From assembly GCA_027422505.1 (NCBI GenBank), contig JAPQWV010000050.1, positions 434,001-498,000 of the forward strand: a DNA stretch of 64,000 nt. Reading direction: 5' to 3'. Position numbers and translations under genes: made by a program. The stretch is from Craterostigma plantagineum. Taxonomy: Eukaryota; Streptophyta; Magnoliopsida; Lamiales; Linderniaceae. The stretch's first letter is position 1. Every line of letters begins with the position of its first letter. Below the pieces are notes generated by a model that saw only the letters and a program-made list of their open reading frames with translations, did no database searches and was not told the DNA's origin. Of this stretch, positions 3,956 through 49,892 are shown piece by piece.

Positions 3956-3964
3956 ATGGGCAAT
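3956..3964. repeat. 9-bp target-site duplication, left copy (ATGGGCAAT)
   Basis: ATGGGCAAT stands directly before the left terminus of MULE-1. An identical 9-mer at 17543-17551 follows the right terminus. Nine bases is the usual Mutator-superfamily duplication length. Confidence 0.85.
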
Positions 3965-4208
3965 GGATTTTTTAAGTAAATAGCCCTTGAGCTGGTCATC
4001 TTTTAAAAAAATAGCACCCAAAATCGGACTTTACCTTTGTACTCTTACTAACTCTGCTCTAAAGACTATTTTACCCTTATTTAATGTCAATCAACAACCT
4101 CAACAACACTTAACGATAAAATTAATTAAAGGGTTTACATGTTACACTGTAGCGAATATGAAACATCAGACCCGTTATAGAAGAGTGGGGTAAAAGTAAA
4201 AAAAGCAA

Positions 4209-4330
4209 CCACTTTCACTTCCAGTAAAAAAAGCAAGCGTGTCTCCCGCCCCTGCACTGCAAATCGTCTCCACTTTCACTTCCTGTAAAAGAACAAGCGT
4301 GTGCTCTCCCGCCCCTGCACTGCAAATCAT
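4209..4330 (+). repeat. 61-bp tandem duplication in the Ulp1-A leader
   Basis: A block containing ccactttcacttcc, then caagcgtgt, then cccgcccctgcactgcaaat occurs twice, at about 4209-4268 and 4270-4330. It sits just upstream of the short first exon and probably forms promoter or 5' leader. The inverted counterpart near 15870-15960 has only one related copy. Confidence 0.7.
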
Positions 4331-4360
4331 CGTCTTCTCTGCAAATCGACTCATTCGACA

Positions 4361-7339
4361 ATGGCATTCAACGGGAACGTGGAGGTATGTGTTCTACTCT
4401 TCGTCTTCTTCAATTTAACGCGAGAGGGGATCTGGGAACGACCCATCGAACCCTAATTTGGTGCGGACCCGTGCTTGCAAGCATAGGACAGATAATGGTA
4501 GCATAGGACTCGCGCTTGCAAGCGTAGGACCTGTGCTTGCAAGCACGGGACCCGTGCTTGCAAGCATAAGACCCGTGCTTGCAAGCATAGGACATGGGTC
4601 ACGCGCGCGCAAGTTCGGGGGACCCGCGCGTTATAAGAAGGGGACCCGCGCGCTATTACCAGGGGACCCGCGCTTATACGCATGGTTCCCCTGCTTAAAC
4701 GCTCAGGTTCTCTTACCTTAACGGGCGGGTCCTGTGCCACTGCGCGTGCGCAAGCGGGGGACCCGCGCGTTATAAGCAGGGGACCCGCGCGCTATGCCCA
4801 GGAGACCCGCGCTTATACGCAGGGGACCCGCGCTTATACGCACGGTTCCCCTGCTTAAACGCTCGGGTCCTCTTACCTTAACGGGCGGGTCCTGTGCCAC
4901 TGCACGTGCGCAAGTTCGGGGGACCCGCGCGTTATAAGCAGGGGACCCGCGCGCTATGACCAGGGGACCCGCGCTTATACGCAGGGGACCCTTGCTGGGA
5001 CCGCGCCGATGCGCAGGGGTTTCATGCGCGTCCGTGCTTGAATCTCAGCATATGCGATGCGGTCCCCTGCGCATCTATGCATAAGTGTTTTCTGTTTTAA
5101 TTATTTCATACCACGTAATTTAGCTAAAATGTGTTTTACGCATAAATTAGGTTGTGATGCAGAAGCAGTTCGACACAGTTGACGAAGTTCCCCGTTTGAG
5201 TGTAAAAATGAGCTCGTTATACGCGGATGCCAGCGAGCTGATAAGAGAATGTCTGAACCACCACGAGTGGGAGATTTTTAGGAACGACAGTCCGTTAGGC
5301 CGCCTTGTTATGGCTGAGCCTGATTTTAACCTCTCGGGCCAGTTGCTGTGGTACCTCATCCAGAACCAGACGATGCTGCACAACCGGGAAGAGCTGTGGA
5401 TGATTTTTGGCGGAACAAAGTCGGATTATTGCCTAATCATCGGGCTGAAGTTCGCAGCCGAGCTACCGCCGGTAAACGGCGGCTCACAATTCACCGCAAG
5501 ACATTTTGGCAACAGCTCAAAAGTCCGCATGTCGCACGTCAAGCGTGTGTTGGAGCGGTTGTCTGGCGACGAGGACGATGTGGACTTCGAGAAGCTGAAG
5601 TTGGCGGACGTGTACTTCGCCACCGCCGTGTTGATGCCTCGACCGTCGAAGAAGGACACCGTCGTCAGTACGACGGTCCGTAGTCTCGTCGAAGATCGAT
5701 TTGCATTCTCTCAGTACCCTTGGGGCACCGTGGCTTTCCGTGAGGTGATACGAAGTGTTAAGGTAAATCTACGGGAGAGGCCACGGGACTGGCTGATCAG
5801 TGGGTTCGTACAACCACTTCAGGTGAATAATAACTAAGCTTCTTGCATACCATATTTTGAGGGACGTTTGTAAGATTTTTTGCGTTATTTGTATTCAGAT
5901 ACTAGCATACGAGTGCATGCCGGGGGTTGTATACCAGTTTGCGGTTCGCAAGGAAGAACATTTCACGCCACGCATGCTAAGATGGGTGACGAAGAATTGG
6001 GGTCGCAAAGCATGTCCGACTCTTAGGACGATCGCAGATGTCGTCAACGGCGGTTTTGTACGAGGGTTGTTAGTGCCGTCAGCGGAAGAGTTGGAGGCGG
6101 CGTACTTTAGGGACAGCGTTTTCGACGTTGGGGCGGCACACGACATATTCGACCGTGTGACGGGCCTACTCACGCGGGGAGTGGAGGTTAGGTGTTCCCC
6201 TGTACACCGCGATCGTGGCGACGACGATCATTTAGCGATCGTACCTGTTGAAGATTTTCCCACACCTGTGGAGGTGGTTGAGGCGGGAGACGTTGGTGCT
6301 TCGTCGAGTGCCCGAGGAGTTCGAAGAAGAGGCAAAGCGCCTGTAGAATTTGTTGATCTAAGTGATGAGGATTCTGGCTCAGACGGAAATGAGAAGTGGA
6401 GCAAGAAGTACCTCGGGCGAGTGGACTTCTCCGGGCGTGAGCTGATTCATGAACACGATCGCGTGCTCATTGACATGTACCTTCAAGCGGCAAGATTTAG
6501 GTAAATTTTTCTTTCGAGAACAGCCTCAGTATAAGTACATAAACACGTAATAATTTTTCTTTTTTTGCAGTGATAAGGTTTGGGAAGGTGACATGTGCGA
6601 TGTGGATGCCCAAGGCTTCTACATGTTGCTCTTCCGTGATATGCTCAAGTCCAATTGTCTTGACGCATATCTAGATTGCTTGAGGCGAATCTATGCGGAC
6701 AATGACAATTATCCTCGCGTCTTCGTCTTTCCAAGTTACGTGCAAGACGAGCACTTTAGGAAGGCGCAGAAGTTGAATAGGAAGGCGCAAGTACGGGTGG
6801 ATGATATGGAGAACTTCGTGAATGGATTGTCGGAAAGCAGTCGGAGCTGGTTGGAGCGTCTCACGGAGGATGAATTGCTACGATGCAAGTACATCATCTC
6901 TCCTGTTTGCGCACGGGCCCACTGGGCAGTGCTTATTTTTGACGCGTCAACGCAAACCTTCGTCCTTCACGATTCATTGGGCGCGCATGGTGTGCAATTC
7001 GCCGGGAGAGTGTTCGTAAGTAGCTGAAATCCGTTTGTCTATCATTTTTATTTATTTAGTGACATGTTCGGTGTTCGCTATATTTTGCAGGCGGAGTTTC
7101 TTTCCGCATATTGGCGTTTCAAGTTCGACATCGTGACGAAGCCGAAGTTGAATAATAAAATGAATCGCCAGCAGAAGGCTGGCAGCTTGGATTGCGGGGT
7201 TCATGCGGCGTTGACGGTGGAGACGGTTATGGTTGACACGCCCGAGTTTGATGAATATCAACGGCAGATTGATATTTCACCGTATCGAGCCACTATGGCT
7301 GCACGGATATTGCGTGACCCGCATAGCAGTATGAATTGA
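4361..7339 (+). CDS. Ulp1-like SUMO protease (peptidase C48) with DUF1985 domain, MULE-borne
   Basis: Five exons join in frame: 4361-4384 (MAFNGNVE), 5151-5822, 5899-6500, 6571-7015 and 7091-7339. Every intron is GT/AG and the product is 663 residues. Residues ~9-230 form a DUF1985 domain (LRR-like motifs are absent; GRLVMAEPDFNLS and WLISGFVQPLQ are typical). Residues 233-330 continue that domain (FTPRMLRWVTKNWGRK), and an acidic linker follows. The C-terminal half is a C48 peptidase with the catalytic order His550 (AHWAVLIFD), Asp567 (LHDSLG) and Cys616 (LDCGVHA), and a Gln-rich stretch just before the Cys. Ulp1 enzymes remove SUMO from proteins. The first exon is inferred from the inverted paralogue, which has the same ATG-GCA exon and the same acceptor TTAG|GTTGTGATG. 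If that exon is wrong, translation could begin at ATG 5157. There is no lesion in any exon. Confidence 0.8.
4458..5090 (+). repeat. G+C-rich minisatellite array inside intron 1 of Ulp1-A
   Basis: First come about six ~20-bp units based on cttgcaagca (4480-4600). Then three copies of a 140-160-bp unit begin at about 4617, 4758 and 4918. Each unit contains ggacccgcgcgttataa, gcgcgctat, cgcttatacgca, a tgcttaaacgctc box and ccttaacgggcgggtcctgt. The tail 5020-5095 is the reverse complement of sequence repeated at 10420, 11120 and 15285. The whole array lies between a good donor (GAG|GTATGT, 4385) and acceptor (5150). Confidence 0.8.
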
Positions 7340-8047
7340 TTTGTTTCAGCTTTGTTTGCGTATCAAGTTTGGAAGTGTTAATTGTAAGTGGCTTTGTAGG
7401 TTTAATGGACTTGGTGTAGTTTGTAGGTTTATGGAACTAAAATTTTTTGATATTATTGAATGAATTGATTCTCTGTATGAAACGAAAGTACGTGATGGAT
7501 GATTTGACTTGTTACTGAGGAAATTATTTTGACCAAATACTCAGCAATATGCGCGGGTCCCCTGATTTTACCTGCGGGTCCCCTGATTTTACGTGCAGGT
7601 CCCATGATTTCAAGTTATGGTCCCTTTAGCACGTATCCCACCATATCACTTGATAAAACTTTTTCCATTGTTGAATGAATTGATTCTCTGTATGAAACGA
7701 AACGTGATGGGTGATCTGACTTGTTACTGAGGAAAATATTTTGACCAAATACTCAGTAATTGTTCAATTATTGGTACGACTAGGAGGAAAACCCTAAATT
7801 GGACAGCGACCCGTTCATATACATACCTATACGGGACGCGTCCCATCAGCGCCAACGCAATAAGCACGGGTCCCCTAAGAATGTTTTGGTCCCCTGATTT
7901 TACGTGCATTTCCCATGATTTCAAGTTATGGTCCCTTTAGCACGTTACCCACCATATGACTTGATAAACCTTTAAAATAATGCACGACCATTTTTTGGTA
8001 CAGAAAGCATACATTCCACCATCGTACGATCACTTTTGGTGATAATC
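7340..8047 (+). repeat. MULE-1 spacer with a ~210-bp direct duplication
   Basis: No gene. A segment containing ttgaatgaattgattctc, gtatgaaacgaa and gaccaaatactcag occurs at about 7457-7550 and again at 7670-7765. Heptamer-bearing sequence (gggtcccctgatttta) and tcaagttatggtcc follow each copy. It lies between the end of Ulp1-A and the transposase start and may hold the terminator of one and the promoter of the other. Confidence 0.6.
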
Positions 8048-10314
8048 ATGACGATCACCAGCATTGTTTTTCAAGTCGATGGTAAGTGGGTAATTCGCGA
8101 GGACAATACGTCGAACTGGGTTCCGGATCCAACTTGCCGTTGGCAATCAATCTTGGTCGACGAGGAGTCATGCACGTTAGTGGATCTCACTAACGAGATA
8201 TTGAATGCATTGTCGTTACGCAACGACAATACCAAACTACGGATAAGCTACATGCCTTGCATAGACTACAATTATGTGCGCCCCATCTACATCGAGAACG
8301 ATTACGGCGTACGTGCGTACGTTGGAGGTGGTTGCCCACGATCAAGACCACCTCTTCACGTGGAACTTGAATTAGCCATCATTGCGTCACCGCCACATCA
8401 ACCTCATGATAATGATTCTCTGGTTTCGACGTCGGCCTTATAGCGCATTGCGATACAAACGCCGAAATCCAACCATTTGAGGGTTTTCCCAGCACATCTT
8501 ACAACCCTCCTTACCAAAGTAATGAAAGCAGTGGCTATGTAGGCGATTACTCCGGAATGTGCGGCCAAGGATATGATAATGAGAACGAGCAAGTCGGACG
8601 GGACGACGAAAATGAGAACGAGGAAGGTGCCTTAATGCATGATGATGATGATGATGATGACGCACATGATGACGATTTTGACGTCGATGTGCACGACGAC
8701 GCAACTGATGTGGCCGACGATGGTACCTATTCTTTTTCGGATGGTTCGACCCTATATGTTGGACAAGAATTCCGTAGCAAGAAAGAATTGAAGGACGAAA
8801 TCACTAAAATCGCTGTCGCTGCATGCTTCGAACTCCAAGTGGATAGGTCAAACAAAACCCTGTACGTAGTGAATGTGCGAAGGAGAACTGCGAATGGCGC
8901 ATACGAGGTGCACAGGATAAGGACTCCCTCTTTTTCTCAATCCGAAAGTACGTCAACACGCACACGTGCGGCGTGTCTCATCGACGCCGTAGACATCGCC
9001 AGGGAAGTTCGTCGCTAGTATCGAGCACGTTGTTGGAAAATTTCAGGGCTCCTAAAGACATCCCCGCTCCCAGTTCCATACAGTCGATGATGCAGAGCAG
9101 GGGAGTAGAAGTTTCATACTACAAGGCTTGGAGAGGAAAACAAATTGCGATCGACGAACTAGTAGGTAACAGGGACGCTTGCTACGGTTTACTGCCGTCT
9201 TCTTAGATGCGGTGAGGCAAGCCAACGAGGGCAGTATCACTGATTGGGAGATGGACGAAGACAATCGGTTCAAGTACATGTTCTTGGCATACGGAGCATA
9301 CGTCAGCGGCTTTACGTTCATGAGGAAAGTCGTTTCTATCGACGCCACTTTTTTGAAGGGGAAGTATAAGGGACTCATGATGATTGCCACTGCGCAAGAC
9401 GGCAATTTCCATCAATATCCTTTAGCATGGGGTATTGCCGACGGGTCGGAGGGAACCGACCCATGGACGTGGTTTCTCTCGAGATTAAGACGTTTTGTTG
9501 CGGATGGCGACGATCTCGTAATAATTTCCGATCGGAACCCTGGAATCAAGAATGCAGTTCCGGCCGTTTTCCCAAACGCGTTTCATGGTTTCTGTGCGTG
9601 GCACCTTCAACAAAACGTGAAGACGAGAATGAAGAAGAAAGGTGCTTGTCCAATCTTCTGGCGTGCCGCTACTGCCTACACGAAGAGCGAGTCCGACCGT
9701 CATTTTAGGCAGCTTGACGGAAAATATGCGGACGTGCAGAGGTATCTTAACGAAGTCCCAAAGGAAACGTGGACGCGAGCATATTGCCCTAGATCAAGAT
9801 ACAACATAATGACGACCAACGGATCGGAGTCTATAAATGCAGCTCTACATCATCATGGTTCAGTAAGCATCGGCGCTCTGCGGAAGCTTCAATCGCCTCG
9901 AACATGACTAGGTTTACGCCGAAGGTAGAGTCGATCATACGAGAGAATTTCACCGAGTCGCAAAAATTTCATGTGTCGAAAGTCGGGCATCTAACATAGA
10001 ACGTATACGGGCAGCATGTGAACGAGGTGGTCGATTTGGGGCTGCGCACATGCACGTGCATGATGTTTGACATCGATCGTATCCCATGTCCACATGCGGT
10101 TGCAGCTTGTGGTTCTGCCCAAGTGCCGGTATATTCATTAGTGCACGATTATTATACCTTGGAGTTCTGGAAACTGGCATACGAAGGTACTATACTTCCG
10201 GTAACGGACCGCATTGAAAGTAGTATGGACATGTTGCCGCCTCGTGTTGGTTCACAACGTGGACGACCACAGAAAAATAGGTTTCCTTCGACGGGTGAAT
10301 TTGGTAGGAGATAA
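8048..10314 (+). pseudogene. Mutator-like transposase (MURA), decayed
   Basis: The start is ATG 8048. Reading pieces in three frames gives a full MURA order: N-terminal PB1-like region to ~8410, acidic linker, MuDR DNA-binding domain (FRSKKELKDEI, CAKENCEWRIRG, IRKYVNTHTC), then the DDE core with IDATFLKGKYKG (~9336), IISDRN (~9520), FCAWHLQQN and TNGSES (~9815), then a SWIM zinc finger CTCMMFDIDRIPCPH (~10050-10110). Lesions: single-base shifts near 8418, 8873 and 9200, all in the same direction. About 60 bases are missing plus a frame change near 9855, where SINAALHHH should run on to a WFSKHRR-type segment. An amber stop lies at 9997-9999 where Tyr is expected (HLT*NVYG). It cannot give a full transposase as read. 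Confidence 0.85.
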
Positions 10315-10403
10315 CGTTGTAATATGTAGTTTTCGTATTCAGAGTGGCTTATACGTCGCCATTTGTATTATGTTATGTAAGGTTGTGTTAGACGAGCGTT
10401 TGC

Positions 10404-11570
10404 GTGAATATGGAAGTAGAAAACCCTTATGCACAAATGCGCAGGGGACCGCATCGCATATGCAGAGAATCCCGCACGGACGCGCATGAGACCCATGCGC
10501 ATGAATGTGGTTCCCGCCGGGTCCCCTGTCTTCAACGTTTGGGTCCCGTGAAAAAATCGCGCTGGTCCCATGTTCCTTGCGCGCAGGGAGGGGCGCGTTA
10601 CTCCCATCGGACCCAAACGTTAAAGGGAGGGGACCTGCCGATTAGCACATGGTACCCCAAATCATTAGGGTTGGTCACGTTCGCTTACTAAGTGGGTCCA
10701 ATAATTGTTCAGTTATTGATGAAAAGTGACATGTAGCAGTGCTTCATTTATTGGTGAAGTGACATGTCAGAGCAGTGTCATTATACAGTTCATCAGAGAC
10801 AGATGACTTGACATTTGATTCCCGATTCCACTTTTTTGTCCCCGGCGAAAATCTAATATTATTAAATTCGTTAATAAGATAATATTGTCCACTGTGAAAA
10901 TCTAATATTATTAAATTCGTTAATAAGATAATATTGTCCACTGCGAAAATCTAATATTATTAAATTCGTTAATAAGATAGTCATTAATAAAAAATTAAAA
11001 AATTCGTTAGTATGGGTTATATTTTTTATATGAATTATATTTATTTATAAGATTAAAATCGTATTTTTTATTCAAGAGGGGGTGTGAATAGTAGCCCCCT
11101 TTAGAAAATTACGGTACGAATATGGAAATAGAAAACCCTTATGCACAGATGCGCAAGGGTCCGCATCGCATATGCAGCGAAGCCCGCACGGATGCGCATG
11201 AGACCCCGGCGCATCTTTGCGGTTCCCGCCGGGTCCCCTTCCCATAACGTGAAGGTCCCATGATATTAAGGTTTGGGTCCCGTGATAGTAATGCGGGGTC
11301 CCATGAGTCTTGCGCGCAGGGAGGGCGCGTTACGAGCATGGGACTCAAACCTTAAAGGCAGGGGACCTTCCGATTACCACACGGTACCCGCACATTAGGG
11401 TTAGTGATGTTCGCTTATTGAGTGGGACCAATAATTGCTCAATTATAGGTCAAAACTGACATGTCAGAGTAGTGTCCCTATTTATTCGTCAAAAGTGACA
11501 TGTCAGAGCAGTGTTACTATACAGTATGTTCAGGACAGATGACTTGACATTTTATTCCCGATTTGCTTGT
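10404..11570 (+). repeat. Two ~440-bp direct repeats with heptamer clusters
   Basis: Copy A begins near 10404 and copy B near 11119, both with gaatatggaa then aaaacccttatgcaca. Both run through gcatcgcatatgcag, cccgccgggtcccct and a GACTTGACATTT end near 10820 and 11550. The first part recurs again at 15283 and, inverted, at 5020-5095. No protein-coding signal was seen. Copy A ends in the 49-bp tandem repeat listed next. Confidence 0.7.
10847..10980 (+). repeat. 49-bp tandem repeat, about 2.7 copies
   Basis: Units start at 10847, 10896 and 10945 with gaaaatctaatattattaa and include attcgttaataagata and ttgtccactg. Copy B of the larger repeat has only a single related unit near 11578, so the amplification happened after the ~440-bp duplication. 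Confidence 0.8.
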
Positions 11571-12705
11571 AATGTTGTGAAAATCTAATATATTATTAAA
11601 TTCGTTAATAAGATAAAAATTAATAAAAAATTAAGTGTGCGTAAAAAAAATAAATTTAAATAACCACTCGATTAACAATATCTAACTCCAAGTTTAGAAA
11701 AAAGAAAATATATTTTACAACATGTATTTCGAGTCGTACGATCATTGACGTGAATCTAGTAAGAGAGCACACCGAGAAAACATACTCATGTTTGTGATTT
11801 ATGTATGCTGTAACAATCTTATAAAGTGAACGTAATTCTTTTGATTACCTCCAATTTTTTTGTTCTGTGCTATTTTATAATGACTTTATATTGTAGTCTA
11901 CGATAAACAAAGTATAAATACGCTCAATTAATCGCTTACTTCCATGAATTAACATTGCAAAAATCGCACATGAACATAGGGGACCCACATTTTTTGAACA
12001 GCGGACCCCCTCTTCAAAACAGGGGACCCGCGATGATTGCATAGTCCCCACACTGAGATGTCCGGGTCAGTCGTGGTCCCGTCAAAATTGTCCGCATGTC
12101 ATTGCCGGGTCCCGACTGGTCCCTTCGAAATGTCGCTTGAGCAGAAGACCCGCTAAGGGAGCGTTATAAGCATGGGTCCAGCGCTTGTATTCAGGGGACC
12201 CGCTAAGGGAGCGTTCATAGATAACACGAAAAACTTAATATGAAAAAAGTTAAGTTATGTCAAATCACTGCCATTCGCGTTATTTTTATGTCAACTCACA
12301 CATCACTCTCACTGACAAAATCACCTCTCACAATTTCTAAACCCTAAATTGATATCAAACACACGTAAAGCAGATGACTTCTATCAAACAACTAAAATTA
12401 AAATTAAACAGAGATCACAAACAACACATAGAACATTTATTCAACAACAGAAGAAAACTAGAAAGATTTCAAATCACTTAAAATTCAGTTCTTTTTATTT
12501 TTACGTCAAATCACACATCAGTCTCACTGACAAAAAGTTGGAAAACACAGAGAAACTCAATCTTTCACAATTCTAAACCCTAAATTCATATCCACCAAAC
12601 GATATGCACAAATCAAACAAGTAAAATTAAAATTCAAGGGAGAAATTCAACAACACATGAAATAGTTCGTGAACATCGCAAATTTTAATAAAAAAAAAAG
12701 GTATA
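11571..12705. other. MULE-1 non-coding spacer
   Basis: AT-rich sequence with one further heptamer cluster at 11960-12210 (ggacccgcg, gggtcccg). No frame resembles a known protein. It separates the transposase remnant from the 3' end of the inverted Ulp1-like gene. Confidence 0.5.
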
Positions 12706-15700
12706 CTAAAAAGTGTCCCAATCATTATTGAAAATAGAAGATGCGAGGTATTTTCTAAACTCCTTCATATGAGTTTGATTGAGGCGGGAGACGTCGTCCT
12801 TCTTCATCATAAGCGACATTGCCGCCCGCAACATCGCCACGCCATCTTCTCCCCTGAAAATCATATCGAAAAAGACACTTATTTTTAAACACGACGACAA
12901 AGTAATAAAACGCATCATTCATGAAAACTTACTGATTTTGTTTCCTGAAGTCGCGACACCACCTAGCCGACCAGCTCGTGCCCTTGTTAGGCATGCGTTT
13001 TATCAGTTTCAGTTCCTTGAAAATAGCCGGGATTACGATCCGAAGTTTGTTGATGTCGTCGGCGATAAAGCGCAGCTCGAAGCCAGGAGGCGCATCGAAG
13101 TCGTAAATCGTATACTCCTTTTCCCGCACATCAACAACGAACAACACCCATCGGCCTGACGTACGCATGGGGATGGCAACTTTGGTCGCTAGATCCCACG
13201 ACCTGCATTTCCAATCTTCGTCCTCCCCCCTCGCGAACGGGAGCAATTTCTTGAAGCCTTTCCCACACGGCTTCCCGATTAGGTTTAGCACCCCTCGCTC
13301 GTCGACGAGCGTCTTAAATGTATGGGGCATGTACGCGACTTTGCTCGCAACCTGTTTGCTAAATTTCTGCATGCGTTCGATCCCAGCGAGGCATTCATCG
13401 ACATGCTGCAATAAAAGCAAACCGGTTTTCAACACATTCAAGTAAGGTGACGAAAGGTATTTGGTAAATTTATATACGTACCATCTCATCGAGTTTAATA
13501 CCCTCAGTCACAAGGTTCAAGAGCCATGTAGGGTCGTGTTGTCCTAGGATCCCTTCGACTTTCATGCCGGTAATCTGCAAAGCCGTTTTTAGCTGACTTT
13601 CGACTTTTGGCCACAAGTTTTGGGCCTTGAACTGGATATGCCGCTCGAACGCCGAAAGCTTTGGAGGTTTGACTGTATTCGTCGAGGGGAAATCGGTGAA
13701 CGGCGTCGTGGTGTACCAAGATGGCTTCTTCGTCCGCTCAGGGGTCTGTTCTGTGACGACGCCTTTTCCTTTGTCGGTCGCTTGGACAGAAACCGAAGCC
13801 TCGGCGTGCGTCTCCAACTGAGGGACGTCCTGTAGCAGCTCGGCGTGCGTCTCGAAACTGACAAGTTGCGTGCCAAGTTGGTCGAATCGCCCAAACAAGT
13901 TGGTGAAGTTTTGGTCCATACGACTTTGCCATTCATCGAAGCGTGGACCCGAGGCGAAACCCTGACCACTTGATCGTGGGGTCTCCGGTGTTGCATGAAA
14001 GGCGTGCTCGTGCGGAGGTTCGGGGTTGTCGTGCGGATGTTCGGGGATTTGGCCGTGATGCAACATTATATCGGTGTCGCGTCGCTCATTGCTCTCGATT
14101 TGGCCGATGGTCTCAGGCACCAAATTCTGCCGGCTAGAACCCTCACCGCGATGGCGGTGGCCGCGGGAGCACCTAACCTCAAACTCCATGCAGGAGTAGA
14201 AAGGTCACACGATCGAATAGGTCGTGTGCCGGCCCAACGTCGAAGACGCTGTCCCTATAGTACGCCACCTCCAGCTCGTCCGCTGACGGCACTAGTAACC
14301 CTGCGTGTACATGTAACTTGCCAGCGGCCTCTGCGATGCTCTTCAATTTCGGGCAATTCTTGCGACCCCAATCCTTCGTCCGCCACCTGCACATGCGTGG
14401 CGTGAAATCTTCTTCTTTGCGCAACGCATAGGTGTCTCCAATGCCCGAGATGCACTCATAAGCTAGTATCTGAATACAAATAACACAATAAATATTAGCA
14501 ATTACTTATATGTAAAAACAAGGTATGCAAAGAAGCTTAATAATAAATCACCTGAAGTGGCTGAACGAACCCACTTATCAGCCACTCCCGTGGGTTCTCC
14601 CGTAGATTTTTCCTCACAGCACGCATGACCTCCTTGAAAGCCTCGCTGCCCCAAGGATACTCTGAGAAAGCAAACCGGTCTTCAGCGAGGTGAAGGACCC
14701 AGGAAGACACGACGGTGTCCTTCTTGGACCTTCGAGGCAGCAACACCGCGGTGGCGAAGTAGACATCCGCCAACTTGAGCTTCTCTTCGTCCACACGTTC
14801 CTCGTCTCCAGACATCGCCTCCAACGCCTGCTTGACGTTCGACAGGCGAATTGTTGAACTAGCGTCAAAATGCCTCCTCGTGAATGCTTCGACGCGGTCC
14901 ACCGCCGGTATCGCGGCTGCGAACTTGAGGCCGGTGATTAGGCAATACTCCGATTTTGAAAATCGAAGTGGTTTTTTGCCAACAACCATCCACAGCTCTT
15001 CGCGGGTGTGCAGCGCCGTCTGCCTTTGGATAAGGTACCACAACAACTGAATCGAGAGGTTAAAGTCCGGCTCGGCCATGACAAGGCGGCCGAACGGACT
15101 GTGGGCATAATATAGGGCCAACTCCTCATCGTTAAGGCACTGTCTTATCAGCTGGCTGGCCTCGCCGTATAGCGAGGTCACTGTAGGACGACAATCAGGA
15201 ACTTCTGTGCCCAACTGCGTCTTCATCACAACCTAATTTATACGTAAAACACAGTTTAGCCAATTACTTGGTATATGAATATTGAAAATCGAAAACCCTT
15301 ATGCACATATGGCCAGGGGACCGCATCGCATATGCTGACAGTCAAGCACCGATGCGACTGAGACCCCTGCGCATGAGCAGGGGACCTGTGCGTATCTTCA
15401 CGGGATCTGTGTCTACTTTCACGGGACCTTTGCGTATATTCACGGGACCCGCCCATAACATGATGGACTAGGCAAGGGTCCCCTGGCTATAAGCGCGGGT
15501 CCCTTGATTATACGTGCGGGTCCCCTGATCGTAGCGCGCGGGTCCCGTGTTGTTCTTCACAGGCGCAAGGTCACGAGACCCACGCGCTGCGACCAGGGAA
15601 TCCGCTCGTTATAACCAGGGTACCACGCTTATACGCAGTGGACCCGTGCTGGGGCCATCATTTTATGGGCGGGTCCCGTGAAAACGGGCCTGTTCAGTTC

Positions 15701-15822
15701 AATTCTAAGCACGGTCCTATGCTTATCAGCACGGGTCCGCACCGAATTAGGGTTTGCTGCGTTAAATTGAAGAAGACGCACAGTAGAGAAAATACCTTCT
15801 CGGTGTTCGCGTCGATTGCCAT
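12706..15822 (-). pseudogene. Second Ulp1-like gene (DUF1985 + degenerate C48 domain), inverted paralogue
   Basis: Exons on the minus strand: 15822-15796 (MAIDANTEK), 15232-14552, 14469-13482, 13405-12933 and 12853-12706. All splice sites are GT/AG. DUF1985 is well kept (GRLVMAEPDFNLS, WLISGFVQPLQ, FTPRMCRWRTKDWGRK). One extra base near 14180 shifts the frame at HGV/EVR relative to Ulp1-A; downstream the frame is open for 240 residues. The protease part keeps the aspartate strand (YTIYDFDAP). At the histidine position it reads GRWVLFVVD (Arg), and at the cysteine position QGEDGVAML (Asp for Cys). So two of the three catalytic residues are absent and it cannot be a normal SUMO protease. The linker is long and Pro/His-rich. 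Without the frameshift it would be about 770 residues. It could be a pseudo-protease or simply decaying. Confidence 0.8.
15270..15760 (-). repeat. Heptamer array in intron 1 of the inverted Ulp1-like gene
   Basis: Many GGGACC/GGGTCCC-bearing units (for example gcgggtcccttgattatac, cacgggaccc) lie between donor 15795 and acceptor 15233. The region is the inverted counterpart of the array in Ulp1-A, but with different unit order. The outer flank at 15710-16040 mirrors the leader at 4128-4480. Confidence 0.75.
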
Positions 15823-16175
15823 TGTCGATTTACGCTCTAGGACTGGGTTTTACTTGCAGAGAATAGTTGGACTTGCAGAGAAACGATTTGCAGGGCGTTT
15901 TGTGTGCAGGAGAAAACGATTGAAGTGAATTGAAAGTTAAAGTGGTGGTTCTGAAATGCTTTTTAACTTTTACTGTTCCATCACGGGTCAGTTACTTGCA
16001 GTTAAACCTGAAAACCCTTTAATGTAATACCCCTTTATGTTGATTACATAACTAACCTAATTAAATTAAATTAAATACCATAGCACTATCTATATTTTTT
16101 AACGGAAACTAAATATTACATTATAAAACATAGTTAATTTAAAATACAGTACTAATTATTATAAGGTCACGTACA

Positions 16176-17343
16176 TCAATAACAATAGCATATCTTGATT
16201 GATAAAATTATTAAATAATTTATTCTACCCTTCTCGCCATCCTTCTGCACAGCGTTGTTTCGGACAACCTCGATCCAACCTGGGCCTTGGATCACTTCGC
16301 TCTCAGCCTCGTCGTCGTCGTTTCGGACAGCATCGGGTGCTTGTCCTTCGATAACTTCGCTCATAACATCGTCGTCGTCGACCTCGAGAGCATCGTCGTC
16401 GCCGTTTAGGAATCTGTCGATCTCGGCCACGATCCACGCCCTCCTTTGGGAGAGGTCGACACCGAGGTCGGCCTCCAGACGGCGGCGGACGGCGGCGGCC
16501 GTGGTAGTCCAGGGGTCCGAGTGACGGACGATTTCGTGGAGGCGGGCGCGATTTGGGCGTCCGTCACCATTCTTCCTGTTTTGTTTCTGGGATTATTTTT
16601 TAAAAATGTTAGATGCTGTGTGTTTGATAAATCCAAGCCTTATATAGCTTGCAAAACGCCGTAAGAGCTTCCCAAAACCATAACATATAGCGCGGGACCA
16701 AGCTCTAGTACACGGGACCCAAGCTCTAGTGCGCGGGACCCAAGCTCTTGTGCACGGGACCCAAGCTCTACTGCATGAAGCATGCGCGGGTCCCCTGTGT
16801 TTACGCGCAGGTACCCTGCATTTATGCGCGGGTCCCATGATCTAATGGGCCTGCACTAATGTGCGGGGACAATGCACTGATGCGCGGGGCCCGTGAATTT
16901 ATGGGCGGGTCCCGTGAATTTATGTGCGGGTCCCGTGATTTACTCGCCGCACTAATGTGCGGGACTCCTGCTTTAATGTGGGGTCCCACGTTGTAACGCG
17001 CGGAACTCGCGGGTGGCCTGCTCTGCTTTCAAGCAGGGTCCCCGGATCAACTGGAAGTAAAAACAATGAACATGTTCGGCCTTCCAAACCGGAATTTCCG
17101 AAGCTTTGAGAACCCATTGGAAGGGTTTAGGACTGAGAGTTACAGATTTAGATGGTTATATTCAAAATACGACCGGGAAAAATACTTACACTGAAGCGTG
17201 ATGTTCGAATCTTTCGTTCGCCGAGGACTTTCCAGTTTCCTTCGACTGTGAAGAAACGCGATATGAGGTCGGGGAATTTCTCTTAAGGACGAGGACGAAG
17301 AAGAAGAATAATTCGGTGAGGTGGAGTGGAATGAATGCTTTCT
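16176..17343 (-). pseudogene. Captured DEK_C-domain gene (SWIB/spp27-like N-terminus), frameshifted
   Basis: A non-coding first exon (about 17343-17190) ends in a strong donor (GTAAGT at 17189). The second exon starts at 16586 after CCCAG, with ATG at 16570. It reads MVTDAQI, and after a one-base shift near 16550 ARLHEIVRHSD, then AAVRRRLEADLGVDLSQRRA and WIVAEIDRFL. This is the DEK C-terminal fold (PF08766) as found at the N-terminus of plant SWIB/spp27-like proteins. An acidic tail (DDDDVMSEVIEGQ) follows to the stop at 16176. The SWIB domain is missing. Capture of host gene pieces is known for MULEs. The domain call is from motif memory; the frameshift may make it non-functional. Confidence 0.6.
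16680..17045 (-). repeat. Third heptamer array, in the 5' UTR intron of the DEK_C gene
   Basis: Units such as gcgggacccaagctctagt (four near 16690-16770) are followed by several ~22-bp units with gcgggtcccgtgaattta. The array lies between donor 17189 and acceptor 16587. Confidence 0.75.
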
Positions 17344-17542
17344 GCTGCAAAATGGACGTGCAGCTTTTAATTCATTTCAGGCGTTGTATTTTATTTTTGT
17401 TTTTCTTTTTTTATTAATAATAAGGGATTACGAAAAGATGATTAAGTGTTAATTAAAAAGAGTGCTATTGACCAAAAAAAAAAGTCAAGAGTGCTATTTT
17501 TTTAAACTTGACCGCGTCAAATGCCATTTTTTAAAAAGACCC

Positions 17543-17551
17543 ATGGGCAAT
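17543..17551. repeat. 9-bp target-site duplication, right copy (ATGGGCAAT)
   Basis: Identical to 3956-3964; marks the right border of MULE-1. Confidence 0.85.
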
Positions 17552-20152: not shown

Positions 20153-20544
20153 CTGTTCATCACTCGATCTAGCTCTCTGCTTCTTTCTAAAAACGAATTG
20201 ACTCTTGTATTTGTAAAATACAGAGATCTTCTTGATTACTTAGGTTTCAGACTTAGAACTGAAATTTATATACAGATCTGATTTACGGATATTGTTTGGG
20301 ACTAGTTCTCATATTTGCCTTGGTACTTCTGTGGCAGCCTCGAATCAAGCATCAGCCATAGCCACCAGTGACTGAAGCTGCACCAGTTCGAGTGTGCACA
20401 CTCTGTGAATCAACTTCATCCGGTGATATCTCTTCCCTTCTTTATCTGCATACTCTAAGTGGCTAACTGCTTGCTGATCTTTCTGTGTTAGAGTCCAAAG
20501 CTTTGTGTTCTACCTAAAATAAAACTTAACCAACTTATAACAAT

Positions 20545-21690
20545 ATGGAAGACTATTCAGATAACGAGAATGAACAGAATACTCAATCTCAATCCCCTCT
20601 AATAAATCCTACATCAAACAATCCTGAATTAAAAATCAACCCTAGGAATCCTCTTTTCATAAGTCAGTCTGATTTAACAGTAACAAGCATAACAAATGTT
20701 AGCCTTACAGGATCTGAAAATTATTCATATTGGAGCAACTCAATACTACTTGCACTCACTGCCAAGAACAAAACTGGTTTTGTTCATGGTACAGTACCAG
20801 TTCCTGATGATAATGAATTAATCAGTGACTGGGAAAGGTGTAATGTAATAGTATTGTCTTGGCTACTAAATTCTCTTAGTAATGAACTTAGGATTAGATA
20901 TACTTATGCTAAGTTTGCCTCAAAAGTGTGGGAGTCTCTTGAAAAAACTTTCAAAAACATTGATGGGTCTAGGAAGTTTAGTCTACAACAGTCTATATAC
21001 AATTTAAAACAAGGAAATGATAGTGTGTCAATATACTTTTCTAAGTTGCAACACCTGTGGGATGAGCTTGAAGCTCTAACCACAGGGCCAGTTTGCACTT
21101 GCAAAGCAAGTGAACATCAGCATGTTATAAATGAAGAACAAAGACTTATGCAGTTTTTGATGGGCCTTAATGAAAGCTACAGTTTTATAAAAAAACAACA
21201 TTCTACTATACCAACCCTTACCTAATGTTCTTCATGCCTATAACATGGTGAGTAGGGAAGAGTCACATAGGGTTGCCATCCAAACCTCTGATAATAATAC
21301 TTCTATTGTTTTTAACAAAGCATTTAATAAGTCCAGTCAAAACAGTGGGTTTCAAAATCCCTTGATTTGTAAATTCTGTGGTATTAGAGGGCATTCAATA
21401 GAAAAAATGTTACAAGCTTATAGGTAACCCTAATAGTTATCAAAATACAACTAATACCTATAACAATACTAGTAATAATAACAACATTGTTATTTGCAAA
21501 CACTGTGGTATTAAAGGTCATTCAATTGAAAAGTGTTTTAAACTGTTTGGCAAACCAAATAAAAATTATCAGAACTACAACAATGCCAAAAGAGGCTCCA
21601 ACTGGAATGCTTACAAAGTAGCTAATCTGGCAGAAGTAAATTCAAACACCTCTGAAACAATAACTCCCAGTTTATCCATAACTCAATACA
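20545..21690 (+). pseudogene. Copia-1 gag with two zinc knuckles
   Basis: ATG 20545 opens 226 residues with the gag-pre motif (NYSYWSNSILLALTAKNKTGF). A one-base shift near 21200 leads to LLYQPLPNVLHAYNM. Another shift in an A-run near 21407 breaks the first zinc knuckle. With shifts allowed, two CX2CX4HX4C knuckles follow one another: ICKFCGIRGHSIEKC and ICKHCGIKGHSIEKC. Gag packages the element RNA. The two frameshifts prevent a full product. Confidence 0.75.
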
Positions 21691-24600
21691 ACAAATTAAT
21701 GAAACTTCTTGAAAAAGAAAGTCAAGGTGAAGCTAATCAAGACATCATGGCAGGTGCTTTCATAAATACCTTGTCTTCTGATTTTAATAAAGGTTGGATC
21801 ATTGACTCAGGTGCAACAGACCATGTTATATGCTCATGTGAAAACTTGTTGAATAAAAGGCATGTTAGGACTAATAGTATATATATTAAGTTGCCTAATG
21901 GTACATGTTTAGCTGTAGAAGTGATTGGTGATTACATGCTCAATGACAGTTTAACTCTTAGAAATGTGTTAGTTGCTCCTGCTTTTAAATGCAACTTGCT
22001 ATCTGTGTCTAAACTAGCTAGTACCAGTCAGTGCATTGTGAGCTTCAAAGATAACATTTGCACTTTTCAGGACCCACTGTCCCAGAATGTAATGGGGATT
22101 GGTGAGTTAAAGGAGGGGTTGTACTACTTCAACAGTAGTAAGACAGGTAAAGCATGTCACTTAGCTTCCTTTGATATATGGCACAAAAGGTTAGGTCACC
22201 CATCAAATGTTGTGCTTGATCTGTTAAAACCAGTTCTGAAATTCAAAGAAAATCTATCTACTGAGCCTTGTGACATTTGTCACAAGGCAAAGCAGACTAG
22301 AGAACCATTTCCACTTAGTGAGCATAAGTCTGATACCCTATTTGAACTTGTTCATCTTGATGTGTGGGGTCCCTTCAAACATGTTAGTCATAATGGGTGT
22401 AGATATTTTCTTACAATTGTTGATGATTTCTCTAGAGCAACATGGGTGTTTTTACTTAAAGCCAAATCTGATGTTTTTCAGCATGTGAAGCATTTTATCT
22501 ACATGGTTAGAAATCAGTTTGGAAAAACATTGAAAACTGTTAGGACTGATAATGGTACTGAATTTATCAATAGCCAGTTTCATGACTTAACTAGATTAGA
22601 GGGGATCATGCATCAAACTAGTGTAGCTGATACACCACAGCAAAATGGGATAGCTGAAAGGAAACATAGGCATCTGTTAAATGTTGCACGTGCACTTTTC
22701 TTCCAATCTGGTGTGCCTATAATCTACTGGTCTGAGTGCATACTTGGTGCTGTTTTCTTGATAAATAGAACTCCATCTTCTCTACTTAAGGGTAGGTCAC
22801 CCTATGAAATCTTATTGGAAAAACCAGTGAAATATGAAACCTTGAAAACCTTTGGGTGTTTATGCTATGCTACTGTCTTGGGTGCTAAATCTAAGTTTGA
22901 TGCTCGTGCTAAGCAATGTGTTATGCTAGGATACTATGAAAATAAGAAGGCCTATAAATTGCTAGATCTAGATAACAATGAAGTATTTGCAGCTAGGGAT
23001 GTGAAATTCTATGAAACTGTATTTCCTTTTAAGTTGTCCATGCATGAAAAGTTAAGTAAGAATAAAAGTTCACATGTTATGTTTGATGATCTGTTTGAAA
23101 GGAATGTGTCTGCTCTAGATGAATTTGATAACAGTGAAGTGATTGTGAATGAAAATATGTCCCCTGACCTACATGAACAACCTGCTCTGTCGCCAATTAC
23201 TTCTGATTTGCCTGCTAATGACATTGATCTGATCTATGAGAATGAATCACATGATTCTGCAGTGTCTGATGATGTGACTAACCCACTGACTAACACAACA
23301 TGTGATACTGTGAATAGACCTAAGAGAAATATTAGAAGACCCAACTATCTGAAGGATTATGAATGCTCTATAAACTCTGCTAAGTCCAGTATACTTTATC
23401 CTCTGTCTGCTGTTATGAATATGTCTAGGCTTGATATAGGTGATAAGGAATACTGCAACAACATAGATAGATTGACTCTTCCTAGCAGTGTGACTGAAGC
23501 ACTAGGTATTGCAGAATGGAAATAAGCCATGAACTTAGAAATGGAAGCACTCATTAGGAACAGAACGTGGGACTTAGTTGAGTTGCCTAGGAATAGGAAA
23601 CCAGTGGGCAGTAAATGGATTTTTAAGATAAAATACAAGCCAAATGGAGAGGTAGAGAGATTTAAGGCTAGGTTAGTTGCTAAGGGATATAGTCAAAAGG
23701 AGGGTATTGGTTTTAATGAAATTTTTGCACCTGTGGTGAAAATGGTTACCATCAGATTATTACTTGCACTTTCTGTGATGCATGATTGGACAGTTTTTCA
23801 GCTTGACATTGATAATGCTTTCTTACATGGTGAACTAGATGAAGAGGTTTACATGTGCTTACCTGAAGGGTTCTATGACAGTGACAATAGAGTATGTAAG
23901 TTAAATAAGCCACTATATGGTTTGAAGCAAGCTCCACGAAAGTGGAATGAAAAGTTAACTCAAGTTTTGACCATGAATGGCTATAAGCAAAGCTTGAGTG
24001 ACTATTCCTTGTTCTCAAAATCTGAAAAAAAAAATCTGGTTGTGTTCTTACTTGTGTATGTAGATGATATTTTGATTTCTGGAAATAACATGTCTGAAAT
24101 TAATAGGATAAAGGCTGTGCTAAATGACTTGTTTGGTATAAAGGATTTGGGTAGATTAAAGTTTTTCTTAGGAATAGAGGTTTTGAACTGTGACGCTGGG
24201 TTGATATTGAATCAAAGGAAGTACACTCTTGACCTATTAGAAGAATTTGGGGTATTGAATAGCAAACCCAAAGACACACCCATGCAACAGAATTTGAAGT
24301 TCATAGCTGAGAACAAGTCAGATTCTGTTGATGTTTGGCTGTTTCAAAGGTTGATGGGACGACTGATATATCTGTGTAACACTCGTCCTGACATTTCCTA
24401 TGCTGTACAAACCCTTAGTCAATACATGCATAATCCATGTTCATCTCATGTTATTGCTGCATTTAGGATACTAAGGTACTTAAAAGCAGCCCCTGGTTAT
24501 GGCCTGCTCTTGTCGAAAGAAATGAGTGAATAGTTAACTGTTTTTTGTGACTCTGATTGGGCTACATGTTCTGTTACACGTAAATATGTCTCTGGTTTTT

Positions 24601-29531: not shown

Positions 29532-30001
29532 GTATATCCACTCTATACGTATTCTTATTTTTTAAGAGCTCTGAAATCGCTTGGATAAGTAAGTAGGAAT
29601 CAAAGACATAATACAATATTGTTCTTTCCCAAGTAGGGCGGTTGTTACGTGTTGTATTGTTTTTCTAACCACTTTCGAATATATTGACCAAGTCTTCTTA
29701 CATTTAAATATTTTGATGAGACGCGTTATACCTACCAATCCTCGTCGCTCGACGATTCGTCTAATAAATAATTATAATCCTCGTGATAATGCAATATTTA
29801 ATTGAATAAAACATACTCAGACAAATGGGTGTGACCTCTTGTCTGTGTGTTGTAGTAGTTTGAGTAGTCAGTATTATATTACTGAGTTAGGTCAGATAAG
29901 CTACTTAAGTGTTCTTCCATTCACTTGTATACAATATAATTCCTGCATTAATTTCTCCAAAGCGAAAGAAAGATTTCCTTCAGTAGTATATCCAAATAGC
30001 T
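28956..30001. other. Upstream region of the NLR gene
   Basis: AT-rich, no gene. It holds the ATT microsatellite at 29494-29531. The last ~200 bases presumably contain the NLR promoter and leader; I could not fix a core promoter. Confidence 0.4.
29494..29531. repeat. (ATT)n microsatellite, about 12-13 units
   Basis: Uninterrupted att repeats. Confidence 0.95.
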
Positions 30002-32587
30002 ATGGCCGTGGCAGCATATGCGTCTGTGCTCTCTCTTTTGACTTCTTTGGACAATGTTCTTCTGCCTTCACGTCGCTGGATGATCCCCGACATGTCCCAG
30101 ATCGAAGCACTCCAACACAAGCTATCTTTCTTGCAAGAATTTCTCGAAATTCACTCGAAAAAATCAACTACCAACGAACTACTCCGCGAGCTGGCGGTTA
30201 AACTGCAGATCACTGAAGTCGCGCACGATTTATATGATCTCATCGACAAGTATGTCGTAGATCTACTGCGCACTAAAGGACTCCCCGACGATCAGATCGG
30301 TGAGAATATGAGATCGTCGTTCTACCAAGATCTGCAATTGTTGATTGAAAAAATCGAGTCGATAAATCAAGAGCTGACGAAATTTGGAGAGGAAAACCAT
30401 GGGATTGGGGCAGATCGGCGACAGCGTATTAGCAAATCTCCTCTTGCAACCTCTGATTCTAGCGGTGAGAAGGCGGTGGGGCTCGAAGATCACGTGTTGA
30501 AGATAATGGAACGACTCACTGGGAACGAGCGTAGCCTACAAGTCATCCCAATCGTAGGAATGGGAGGTATTGGCAAGACGACCCTCGCTCGCAATACCTT
30601 CGATAAGAAACTCATCGTTGAGCACTTTAGCGTTCGTATTTGGATCACGCTATCGCAAGAATACGACGTGCAGAGTATTCTATTGGGTCTCAAAAAAGAT
30701 GGAGTTATTGATGGTGCTGATGATGATTTAGGAACTTGTTTGTACCAAAAGTTGTTTGGTCGAAGGTATCTGATTGTTATGGACGATGTTTGGGGTACAG
30801 ATGCTTGGGAAGAATTTAGGCTTTTCTTTCCGCAGAATGAGAATAAAAGTCGAATTATTGTGACGACGAGGCTGATGAACGTAGCCGACAATATAACCAG
30901 GGATCGCAGTAACAGTTACCCGATGGGTTTACTAGATGAAGAGAGCAGTTGGAAACTGTTCAGCGGAAAAGCCTTTCGCAACAACGGGGAAAAGTTGACG
31001 AGGGAATTGGAGGAGATTGGAAAGAAGATCGCGAAAAACTGCAAAGGGCTTCCCCTCACGCTCGTCGTGGTCGGTGGACTCCTTTCAAGCCCTAATAGTA
31101 TGACCCGCGAATATTGGGAATCCGTTGCGGATGATGTGAACTCATTGTATCATTTGGAGATTGAGGAAAACTGCTTGAAGATATTATACCTCAGCTACAA
31201 TCACCTGCCCATTCATCTCAAGGCATGCTTTCTTCGATTGAAGGAATTTCCCGAAGACTACGCTATCGATGTGTCTTTGCTTGTCGAGTATTGGATTGCC
31301 GAGGGAATTGTGCGGCCGCCGGCCAGAAATGATTATATGACATTGGAAGAAGTTGCCATGGAATATTTGGAAGATCTAATCGACAGAAATATGATCTTGG
31401 TTCGAAAGCTGGGGGAAATGATGGACATCGAAACTTGCGGCGTTCACGATATCCTGAGGCAACTGTGCATCAAGGAATCTCTTAAAGAGAACATTTTTAC
31501 CTCTTTGAATATGGATTTGTTAACAATTGATGGGAGTGCGAGTTCATGCTTCTTATGCCGTGATGAAACGAGGACGACGAAGAAGAAGATTGGCGTCTGC
31601 GAAGTCAATTGCTCGACATCATCAACGGCTGTCATGAATCCCATGGTCTGCGATTATTGCAGGAAAAAGCATCCACGGTTTATCAAATCAAGATTCATTA
31701 GGCTGATAAACAAGGTGGACGGCCATATCGTAGAAATCCCGCACACGACGAAGCTGTCGTTGCTTTCAATCGAATGTACCTCTGAAGATGTAGAATACCC
31801 ATATCCGTCCCCCATCTCTCTACTTTGGAATCTAATGGTCTTGCGTGAGGATACTGAGGATGGGACAACGCTATTATCGAGAATATGGGAGATGCCACAA
31901 CTTAGGAAAGTGGATACATACCATGGCGTCGTGCTGCCCGATCCGACGGACGAGTTCATCGTATTGGACAATCTACAAACACTACGAACGGTTGAAAACA
32001 TGAAGTGGACGGAGGAAGTCGTAAGAAGGATCCCAAATCTAGTCGAGTTGGAGGCTGATTACCGTTCAGGAGGTTATGAGGAACTAAACGGCTACTGCCT
32101 CAACAACCTTGCACTTCTGCATAGGCTTCGATCCTTGAAACTAAATTCTCTTTATTGCACTTTGCGCATAGAAAACATCGCCTTCCCAAACTCGCTGACG
32201 AAATTGGTTTTATACAGTTGTAGACTCTACTGGAAAGACATGACGGTGGTCGGTTTGCTGCCGAATCTCCAAGTGCTTAAGATATACCACGATGCCGTTG
32301 TCGGCGAAGAGTGGTGCATGGTCGAAGGGCAATTTCAGAAATTAAAGTACCTGCAACTTACTGGTTTAGATGTTGGGGCTTGGAGAGCAGAGGCTAGTTA
32401 TAGCCTTCCCGCTCTTGAGATGCTTTCCCTGATGTTCATGTCACGCCTGGAAGAATTTCCATTAGGCATCGGAGATATTGATACCCTTCGTAAGATAGAA
32501 GTGTACAAGTGCAATGAATGCGTTGTCGACTGGGTGAAGCAGGTAAAGGAGGAACGAGACGAACTTGGTAATGAACTTCTTTGTTGA
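30002..32587 (+). CDS. CC-NB-ARC-LRR resistance protein (R1/late-blight type)
   Basis: A single exon of 861 residues. The N-terminus (MAVAAYASVLSLLTSLDN) is an Rx-type coiled-coil with VAHDLYDLIDKYV at 73-85 in the EDVID position. The NB-ARC shows the P-loop GMGGIGKTT (186-194), RNBS-A near 208-218, kinase-2 LIVMDDVW (257-264), RNBS-B RIIVTTR (284-290), GLPL (349-352), RNBS-D CFLRLKEFPEDYAI (409-422) and VHD in place of MHD (481-483). Degenerate leucine-rich repeats follow from about 575 to the end. Such proteins sense pathogen effectors and trigger immune signalling, usually in the cytosol. Odd point: a Cys-rich insert at 516-556 between the ARC2 and LRR parts. The start fits the family and no lesion is visible. 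It is flanked by transposons. Confidence 0.9.
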   Translation: MAVAAYASVLSLLTSLDNVLLPSRRWMIPDMSQIEALQHKLSFLQEFLEIHSKKSTTNELLRELAVKLQITEVAHDLYDLIDKYVVDLLRTKGLPDDQIGENMRSSFYQDLQLLIEKIESINQELTKFGEENHGIGADRRQRISKSPLATSDSSGEKAVGLEDHVLKIMERLTGNERSLQVIPIVGMGGIGKTTLARNTFDKKLIVEHFSVRIWITLSQEYDVQSILLGLKKDGVIDGADDDLGTCLYQKLFGRRYLIVMDDVWGTDAWEEFRLFFPQNENKSRIIVTTRLMNVADNITRDRSNSYPMGLLDEESSWKLFSGKAFRNNGEKLTRELEEIGKKIAKNCKGLPLTLVVVGGLLSSPNSMTREYWESVADDVNSLYHLEIEENCLKILYLSYNHLPIHLKACFLRLKEFPEDYAIDVSLLVEYWIAEGIVRPPARNDYMTLEEVAMEYLEDLIDRNMILVRKLGEMMDIETCGVHDILRQLCIKESLKENIFTSLNMDLLTIDGSASSCFLCRDETRTTKKKIGVCEVNCSTSSTAVMNPMVCDYCRKKHPRFIKSRFIRLINKVDGHIVEIPHTTKLSLLSIECTSEDVEYPYPSPISLLWNLMVLREDTEDGTTLLSRIWEMPQLRKVDTYHGVVLPDPTDEFIVLDNLQTLRTVENMKWTEEVVRRIPNLVELEADYRSGGYEELNGYCLNNLALLHRLRSLKLNSLYCTLRIENIAFPNSLTKLVLYSCRLYWKDMTVVGLLPNLQVLKIYHDAVVGEEWCMVEGQFQKLKYLQLTGLDVGAWRAEASYSLPALEMLSLMFMSRLEEFPLGIGDIDTLRKIEVYKCNECVVDWVKQVKEERDELGNELLC

Positions 32588-37269: not shown

Positions 37270-37286
37270 AGATAATAAATTCTTCT

Positions 37287-49453: not shown

Positions 49454-49892
49454 AGACAACAACTACGCCAGGAAATGCTATTCTCTCCTACCGTGAGAGT
49501 TTTCTTCTCTCAAAATGAGTGATACTTTCTCTCCTAATGAGAGCAACCTTCAATCCAAATAAAACCAGAAACCATCGAACACTGATTCCTGTTACTGACT
49601 GGCCTGCTTTGCCCATCGCCGCTAGACTCATCTGGCTTTATCCCTGCTCGTCTCTTTTTAATTCATATAATTCACGACCATTCTTCATTTTCGTTCTCCA
49701 AATGGAAATAATAAAACCGTTCATTTCTATGCACTTTGCCTGTTTCACTTCCTAGGCCGATTGTTTCCTTTCCTCTCATTCTGTGTTACGTGTTTTGTTT
49801 TGTCTTCTCTTCTCAGGTACTGCTCGGGAGTTTGACATTCTGTTTCAGATTGTGGTGTTTTTCCTGGGTGTGTATTGGTTCGCTGAGTCATC

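Follow-up and report, generated by a model that had tools for sequence, protein, structure and literature searches.

In the window, by which we mean the whole 64,000-nucleotide stretch of Craterostigma plantagineum DNA that was analysed (434001-498000 of its contig), positions 3965-17542 (13,578 bp, no strand assigned) are occupied by one recently mobile Mutator-like element (MULE) of the Ulp1/DUF1985 (VANC/KIU-like) kind. It is flanked on both sides by the same 9-bp target site duplication (TSD), ATGGGCAAT, at 3956-3964 and 17543-17551, and it ends in degenerate terminal inverted repeats at 3965-4018 (+ strand) and 17490-17542 (- strand), as is typical of MULEs. Aligned as inverted repeats, the two termini gave a local score of 76, whereas none of 1000 shuffles exceeded 56.5, and they have the exact stretch TTTAAAAAAATAGCAC in common. 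The bounds, the perfect duplications and the degenerate inverted ends were all as given in the original prediction. Between the ends lie gene A (DUF1985 and an Ulp1-type protease), the transposase gene mudrA, gene B (DUF1985 and a protease-like domain) and a DEK_C gene. Gene A is on the + strand and gene B on the - strand, both reading inward from either side of mudrA; they are convergent, and not head-to-head as had been proposed. An inner inverted duplication is indeed present, though it spans about 1.9 kb by alignment instead of the announced 3 kb or so: its main part pairs 5009-6221 with 14143-15374 (76% over 1243 columns) and its second part 4355-4489 with 15714-15828 (70%). The element had also been called complete, which is true of its ends but not of its genes, three of the four (mudrA, gene B and DEK_C) being broken in the window copy.

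Other features surround it in the window. A piece of another MULE transposase (45284-46135, +; DBD_Tnp_Mut, 1.2e-8) looks decayed, with a continuation that likely lies in another frame. Two stop-interrupted Copia-type retroelements were found, one at 20530-24533 (+) with gag, integrase and reverse transcriptase and one at 34444-37329 (-) with integrase and reverse transcriptase, the two domains that the scan covered. An 866-codon open NB-ARC/LRR resistance-type gene (29987-32587, +) stands amid retroelements. At 49887-55648 (+), a DUF4283/zinc-knuckle frame is followed by a 1398-codon open frame, which resembles a LINE reverse transcriptase by eye.

Gene A (5157-7339, +) is open. Its frame of 653 codons is distributed over four exons predicted from the genomic DNA alone (5157-5822, 5899-6500, 6571-7015 and 7091-7339), separated by GT-AG introns. 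Pfam searches detected DUF1985 (1.3e-9) and, as in the KAONASHI/Ulp1 MULEs, a Peptidase_C48 domain (3.7e-10). When gene A was aligned with SENP1, the His, Asp, Gln and Cys positions (H-D-Q-C) were found to be kept, a reading of matches with E values of 0.09 or higher, which points to a putatively active SUMO-type protease. A comparison with 5.8 billion proteins, in an apparently plant-poor collection, yielded 7997 scored candidates, none of them at E 0.001. A predicted DUF1985 structure (two sequences) had a mean pLDDT of 40.6 and was discarded. A conserved box is located upstream of gene A (4908-5121, -), with related stretches at 10405-10572, 11100-11315 and 15255-15376. The 148 bp located 5' of the gene A start are 84% identical, over 149 columns, to the sequence 5' of gene B, and the core of the box occurs twice more between mudrA and gene B. 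As it is more alike than the synonymous sites of the two genes (pS 0.34), the box may be functional or homogenised.

Gene B (12706-15226, -; predicted exons 14552-15226, 13482-14469, 12933-13405 and 12706-12853) also contains DUF1985 (1.3e-18), together with a C48 domain (2.7e-5) that is above the cut-off but weaker than in gene A. In its alignment with SENP1 (E about 0.1), an Arg occupies the His position and no Cys is found at the catalytic position, where the best-matching SENP1 chains for gene B have Ala or Ser, while the chain matched by gene A has Cys. Two other subfamilies of the element (C6 and C7b, see below) share this Arg and the Cys-less core GEDGVAML, so that the changes are common to all three subfamilies read, which bears out the description of gene B as a pseudo-protease paralogue. 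In the window copy, gene B has a 1-nt frameshift near 14182 and, at 13850-13861, lacks 681-835 bp compared with six of nine other copies. Its integrity across copies was assessed in pieces, several of which are missing or broken. The middle of gene B contains frames with repeated short units, YSTVTIYDVDVD in copy C7a and ATPPEIGRGSV in C7b; these recall the repeat-rich variable regions that the literature passages covered report for VANC proteins.

The mudrA gene (7976-10314, +) carries four frameshifting indels and one stop in the window copy. Its pieces match DBD_Tnp_Mut, the MULE DDE domain and SWIM above cut-off, the domains of a MURA transposase, and Plant_all_beta below cut-off; an 800-codon open frame is present in another copy than that of the window. 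A stretch of 113 bp (7559-7671) between gene A and mudrA is absent from seven of the nine other aligned copies and adjoins a local duplication (7438-7548 / 7654-7760). The DEK_C gene (16179-16571, -) resembles a host DEK_C-SWIB gene and is frameshifted near its start in the window copy.

Further copies were sought in the host genome (1.71 Gb, 6262 contigs) with the left end (516 bp) and the right end (943 bp), as the original prediction had suggested. These searches gave 1479 and 1523 candidates, respectively; the best 40 of each were scored and all were 98-100% identical. Among the scored matches, 14 left-right pairs on a common contig and strand, including the window, were recognised by eye, and 11 of the 13 other pairs were read, bringing the number of copies to 12 with that of the window. 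This sample consists of the closest relatives of the window's ends and is biased to similar copies. The 11 other copies have the same ends and gene order, with lengths of 9,668-24,854 bp (several near 14.1-14.7 kb). Several are internally deleted: C8a misses most of mudrA, and C61, C13a and C68 much of gene B, C68 being also devoid of part of gene A. The TSD is perfect in 8 of the 12 copies. It has one mismatch in nine positions in C68, matches over 9 bp with a shift of one base in C28c and differs at three of nine positions in C7a; copy C28a is situated in TATATA. As a control, flanks from different copies were mispaired, and none of the 132 pairings showed 0 or 1 mismatch.

We considered the possibility that two or more neighbouring or nested elements had been taken for one. 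Between mudrA and gene B (10405-11616, +), an end-proximal region that includes the upstream box is present in two direct copies, 10406-10882 and 11118-11616, which resemble internal ends. Yet all nine copies that were aligned are collinear with the window from end to end, internal deletions and insertions aside, and the remaining two agree by feature coverage and frame order. The frequency of perfect TSDs also argues for one element, as does the presence of the motif GGGWCCC in every inter-genic part of the window copy. With copies that are collinear, share both ends and have TSDs of their own, the composite reading is extremely improbable and was dropped. The 12 copies with both ends in common support the initial view that two inverted Ulp1-type genes, a transposase gene and DEK_C belong to a single MULE.

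When the 10 other copies were compared with C7a, 69 of 90 feature comparisons (hand count, gaps excluded) showed more than 99% identity. The stretch between gene A and mudrA was mostly 97-99% identical, a few short or rearranged stretches scored lower, and the window copy was more diverged (95.9-99.1%). Since most copies are about 99% identical, the family has moved recently. In a DEK_C profile search of the genome, the best 150 of 965 candidates were scored and all were above cut-off; at least 71 of these 150 (hand count), including seven of the 11 copies read, had the family's exact score and range (54.0 bits, profile 1-54), indicating a family of at least dozens of copies. An exact 53-base pattern of the left end matched the window copy only, but C7a and C7b are one A shorter in a run, so this result says nothing on rarity.

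Two other DEK_C-bearing subfamilies were read. C6 was recognised from mudrA to the right end, its left end not being found in this search, and C7b measures 13,871 bp and has a perfect 9-bp TSD, AACAAAGTC, on its outer flanks. The left 3.4 kb of C7b, comprising the end and gene A, is 98.6% identical to C7a; in 500-bp bins, the first six are at 99-100% and those to the right at 70-95%. In this one element, the left arm, which includes gene A and its array, seems to be the product of a recent exchange between lineages that differ by 5-30% elsewhere. Alternatively, C7b might be an assembly join of two elements. Identity does fall from 99-100% to 79-92% within about 0.5 kb, and C7b is the sole such element among those read. 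This explanation is nevertheless improbable, given the perfect TSD around C7b and the fact that 22 of the 150 listed DEK_C matches (hand count) have its 143-aa frame and score, a count made on the DEK_C side. We retain the exchange of arms as the preferred reading of C7b.

The state of the genes differs between copies. Gene A is open in 8 of the 11 copies that hold it whole and mudrA in 1 of 10. For DEK_C the figure is 11 of 12, the exception being the window copy with its one frameshift. C7a is the sole copy in which all checked genes are open, yet it has a poor TSD. Gene A has accumulated 6 lesions in 11 copies and mudrA 22 in 10 copies (p = 0.004); all of them are private to single copies, and single-base lesions may partly be assembly errors. 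This contrast fits a transposase that acts in trans and a gene A on which its own copy depends more. A difficulty for this view is that dN/dS, calculated among recent copies, is 0.69 for gene A and 0.54 for mudrA. The strongest constraint between subfamilies is that on mudrA (dN/dS of C7a versus C6 and C7b, 0.31 and 0.35, intervals below 1). In the same two comparisons, gene B gave 0.49 (0.31-0.81) and 0.45 (0.31-0.65) for exon 1, which encodes DUF1985, 0.74 and 0.61 for exon 2, 0.69 and 1.07 for exon 4, and 0.71 and 0.65, with intervals spanning 1, for the C-terminal domain. DUF1985 of gene A versus that of gene B gave 0.54 (0.39-0.74). The substitution counts for gene B exon 1 among recent copies were left unused because gene B is deleted in C61 and probably in C13a, where the best match is likely the paralogous exon of gene A; the comparison of gene A with C6 was excluded because it probably hit gene B of C6.

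DEK_C was probably captured from the host DEK_C-SWIB gene family. A host gene elsewhere in the genome has a SWIB exon (1.6e-18) after its DEK_C part (1.9e-16), and over 211 bp the DEK_C gene of the element matches it at 86.7% identity. Similarity to this 3.2-kb host locus by blastn is limited to positions 13011-13401 of the C7a element. The presence of the extra SWIB exon in the host gene suggests a capture in the direction from host to element. The dN/dS of DEK_C was 0.66 and 0.96 for C7a versus C6 and C7b, with intervals that span 1, and 0.43 and 0.52 versus the host gene, with upper bounds of 1.07 and 1.33. DEK_C and gene B might thus be passengers, the one a captured host fragment and the other a decaying duplicate. 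That their intervals include 1, for DEK_C and for the C-terminal domain of gene B, speaks for this, as does the identity that the host gene has retained. It is harder to reconcile with an open DEK_C in nearly all copies and its presence in three subfamilies (that of the window, C6 and C7b), with the 10 replacement and 8 silent changes in DEK_C among recent copies (ratio 0.38), with the constraint on gene B exon 1, and with the constancy of the Arg and of the Cys-less core of gene B across the three subfamilies. We consider the passenger explanation a plausible one, to which we give a little less than even weight. DEK_C is independently tied to the element by the presence of GGGWCCC on both of its sides.

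This palindrome is found 38 times in the 6142 bp of non-coding DNA of the element, compared with 0.36 expected from base composition; 300 shuffles of the non-coding part gave a mean of 0.54 and a maximum of 3. The genes, with their introns (7436 bp), contain none, where 0.92 would be expected, and the 50,404 bp of the window outside the element contain one, where 1.80 would be expected. What stands out is the non-coding excess; the lack of sites in genes is no departure from expectation. Allowing one mismatch, the densities per kb are 14.3 in non-coding DNA, 1.9 in genes and 1.0 outside. The copies hold 26-38 sites each, and their flanks (7224 bp) none. In C7a there are 32 sites, none of them within genes; in C7b there are 39, one of which is inside gene B exon 2. 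In the window copy, the left array (4547-4991) comprises 11 of the 38 sites and the right-half arrays, on both sides of DEK_C (15444-17042), comprise 15; 3 sites are located between gene A and mudrA (7555-7874), where C7a has none and C7b has 12, an expansion of the array between subfamilies. Among the 30 distances between neighbours of up to 135 bp (hand count), 15 are of 21-22 bp and 4 of 42-44 bp. Phase coherence at 21.5 bp is low (0.225, 59 distances), and the best period scanned is 10.7 bp (coherence 0.81); taken together, the distances thus support a period of roughly one helical turn and no more.

In plant cut-and-paste elements such as En/Spm, the transposase is known to bind dense subterminal repeats. 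We therefore considered that GGGWCCC might be such a repeat, in which case the DUF1985 genes would do something else. Of the 38 sites, 26 are in the two outer arms, a location in which a transposase might bind as well. The other 12 lie between genes inside the element, and the variation of the array that separates gene A from mudrA, 0 to 12 sites, is more easily understood in a target whose strength changes than in a structural end. Transposase binding is, in our judgement, rather unlikely, though a genuine competitor, and we prefer to view the arrays as a candidate target of the DUF1985 proteins.

The original prediction had missed both DUF1985 and these non-coding arrays. According to the passages of the literature covered, DUF1985 and DUF287 are domains of Arabidopsis VANC proteins (PMC5735166), the targets of which accumulate in non-coding DNA as tandem arrays of fluctuating copy number (PMC5735166, PMC10398659); VANC21 and VANC6 have motifs of 8-9 bp, at which they remove methylation in Arabidopsis. 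DUF287 was not among the Pfam matches of gene A or of the pieces of gene B, provided that the library includes its model. The presence of DUF1985 in both genes, together with a short motif repeated in non-coding DNA, suggests anti-silencing rather than mere cargo.

We propose the following model. The mudrA product of intact copies would cut and paste the element, leaving 9-bp duplications; the mobility is seen in the copies, and the transposase is its presumed agent. The products of the two convergent DUF1985 genes would, most likely, be anti-silencing factors: they would recognise the element's own GGGWCCC arrays and demethylate the DNA at these sites, in the manner of VANC21 and VANC6 at theirs. 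Gene A would add a putatively active SUMO-type protease, as its kept triad suggests. The 'dead' protease of gene B, without catalytic His and Cys, might have a SUMOylated protein as its binding partner, or DNA alone. DEK_C may, more speculatively, add chromatin binding, and the left arm with gene A would be exchangeable between subfamilies, as seen in one element. The constraint on DUF1985, both between genes A and B and in gene B exon 1, supports anti-silencing. Several observations go against it: dN/dS of gene A among recent copies is not below that of mudrA; the intervals of DEK_C and of the gene B C-terminal domain include 1; genes A and B gave no DUF287 match; GGGWCCC, a 7-bp palindrome, is unlike the longer VANC21 and VANC6 motifs; a large share of the arrays is in the outer arms; and C7a, with all its checked genes open, has a poor TSD. 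On balance, we give this model as a whole somewhat better than an even chance. A stricter version, in which an active DUF1985-protease, a SUMO-binding dead paralogue and a DEK_C protein form a three-part anti-silencing kit that acts on GGGWCCC and whose arms are exchanged, is doubtful.

Several known systems are related to this element. The KAONASHI elements of Arabidopsis (KI-MULE/KIU) and the ULP1 MULEs of melon, rice and grapevine are also MULEs with an Ulp1 (C48) gene. In the passages covered, ULP and the transposase are described as pointing either the same way or opposite ways (PMC2528002, PMC13317346), and as opposite in the Arabidopsis KI-MULE; here gene A has the same direction as mudrA and gene B the opposite one. 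In contrast to those elements, as far as the review passages go, the present one has two convergent DUF1985-C48 genes, one of them without catalytic residues, a host-type DEK_C gene and short degenerate terminal inverted repeats. With VANDALs that carry VANC it has in common a DUF1985 gene, degenerate inverted repeats and a short non-coding repeat motif (PMC5735166, PMC10398659, PMC6446971, in the parts covered). It differs from them in its GGGWCCC palindrome, in the DUF287 result and in the fusion of Ulp1 to DUF1985, although some VANDALs are reported to carry Ulp1-fused VANC genes (KIU), the capture of Ulp1 being old (PMC13317346, citing Sasaki 2022, in the passages covered). As in Pack-MULEs, a piece of a host-type gene, the DEK_C exon, is accompanied by a host gene in the genome; unlike Pack-MULEs, the element has its own transposase gene, mudrA, and other genes. 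CACTA elements that bear Peptidase_C48 (PMC8978399, in the part covered) also combine an Ulp1 domain with a plant DNA transposon, but belong to another superfamily with another transposase.

Ulp1/DUF1985 MULEs are thus already known, and what appears new here is the variant with two such genes and DEK_C, whose candidate target motif can be put to the test. Among the matches listed in a literature search, none stood out from its title and abstract opening as a MULE that bears DEK_C, and a search that combined SWIB, DEK and plant transposon found no publication. In the literature passages covered, anti-silencing by VANC was established by experiment in Arabidopsis elements only. The related family of the Craterostigma genome is young, has multiple copies and combines an open DUF1985-protease gene with a candidate motif that is sharply defined; this makes it possible to test, in another plant, how targets are recognised, what the fused Ulp1 does and how targeting modules are exchanged.
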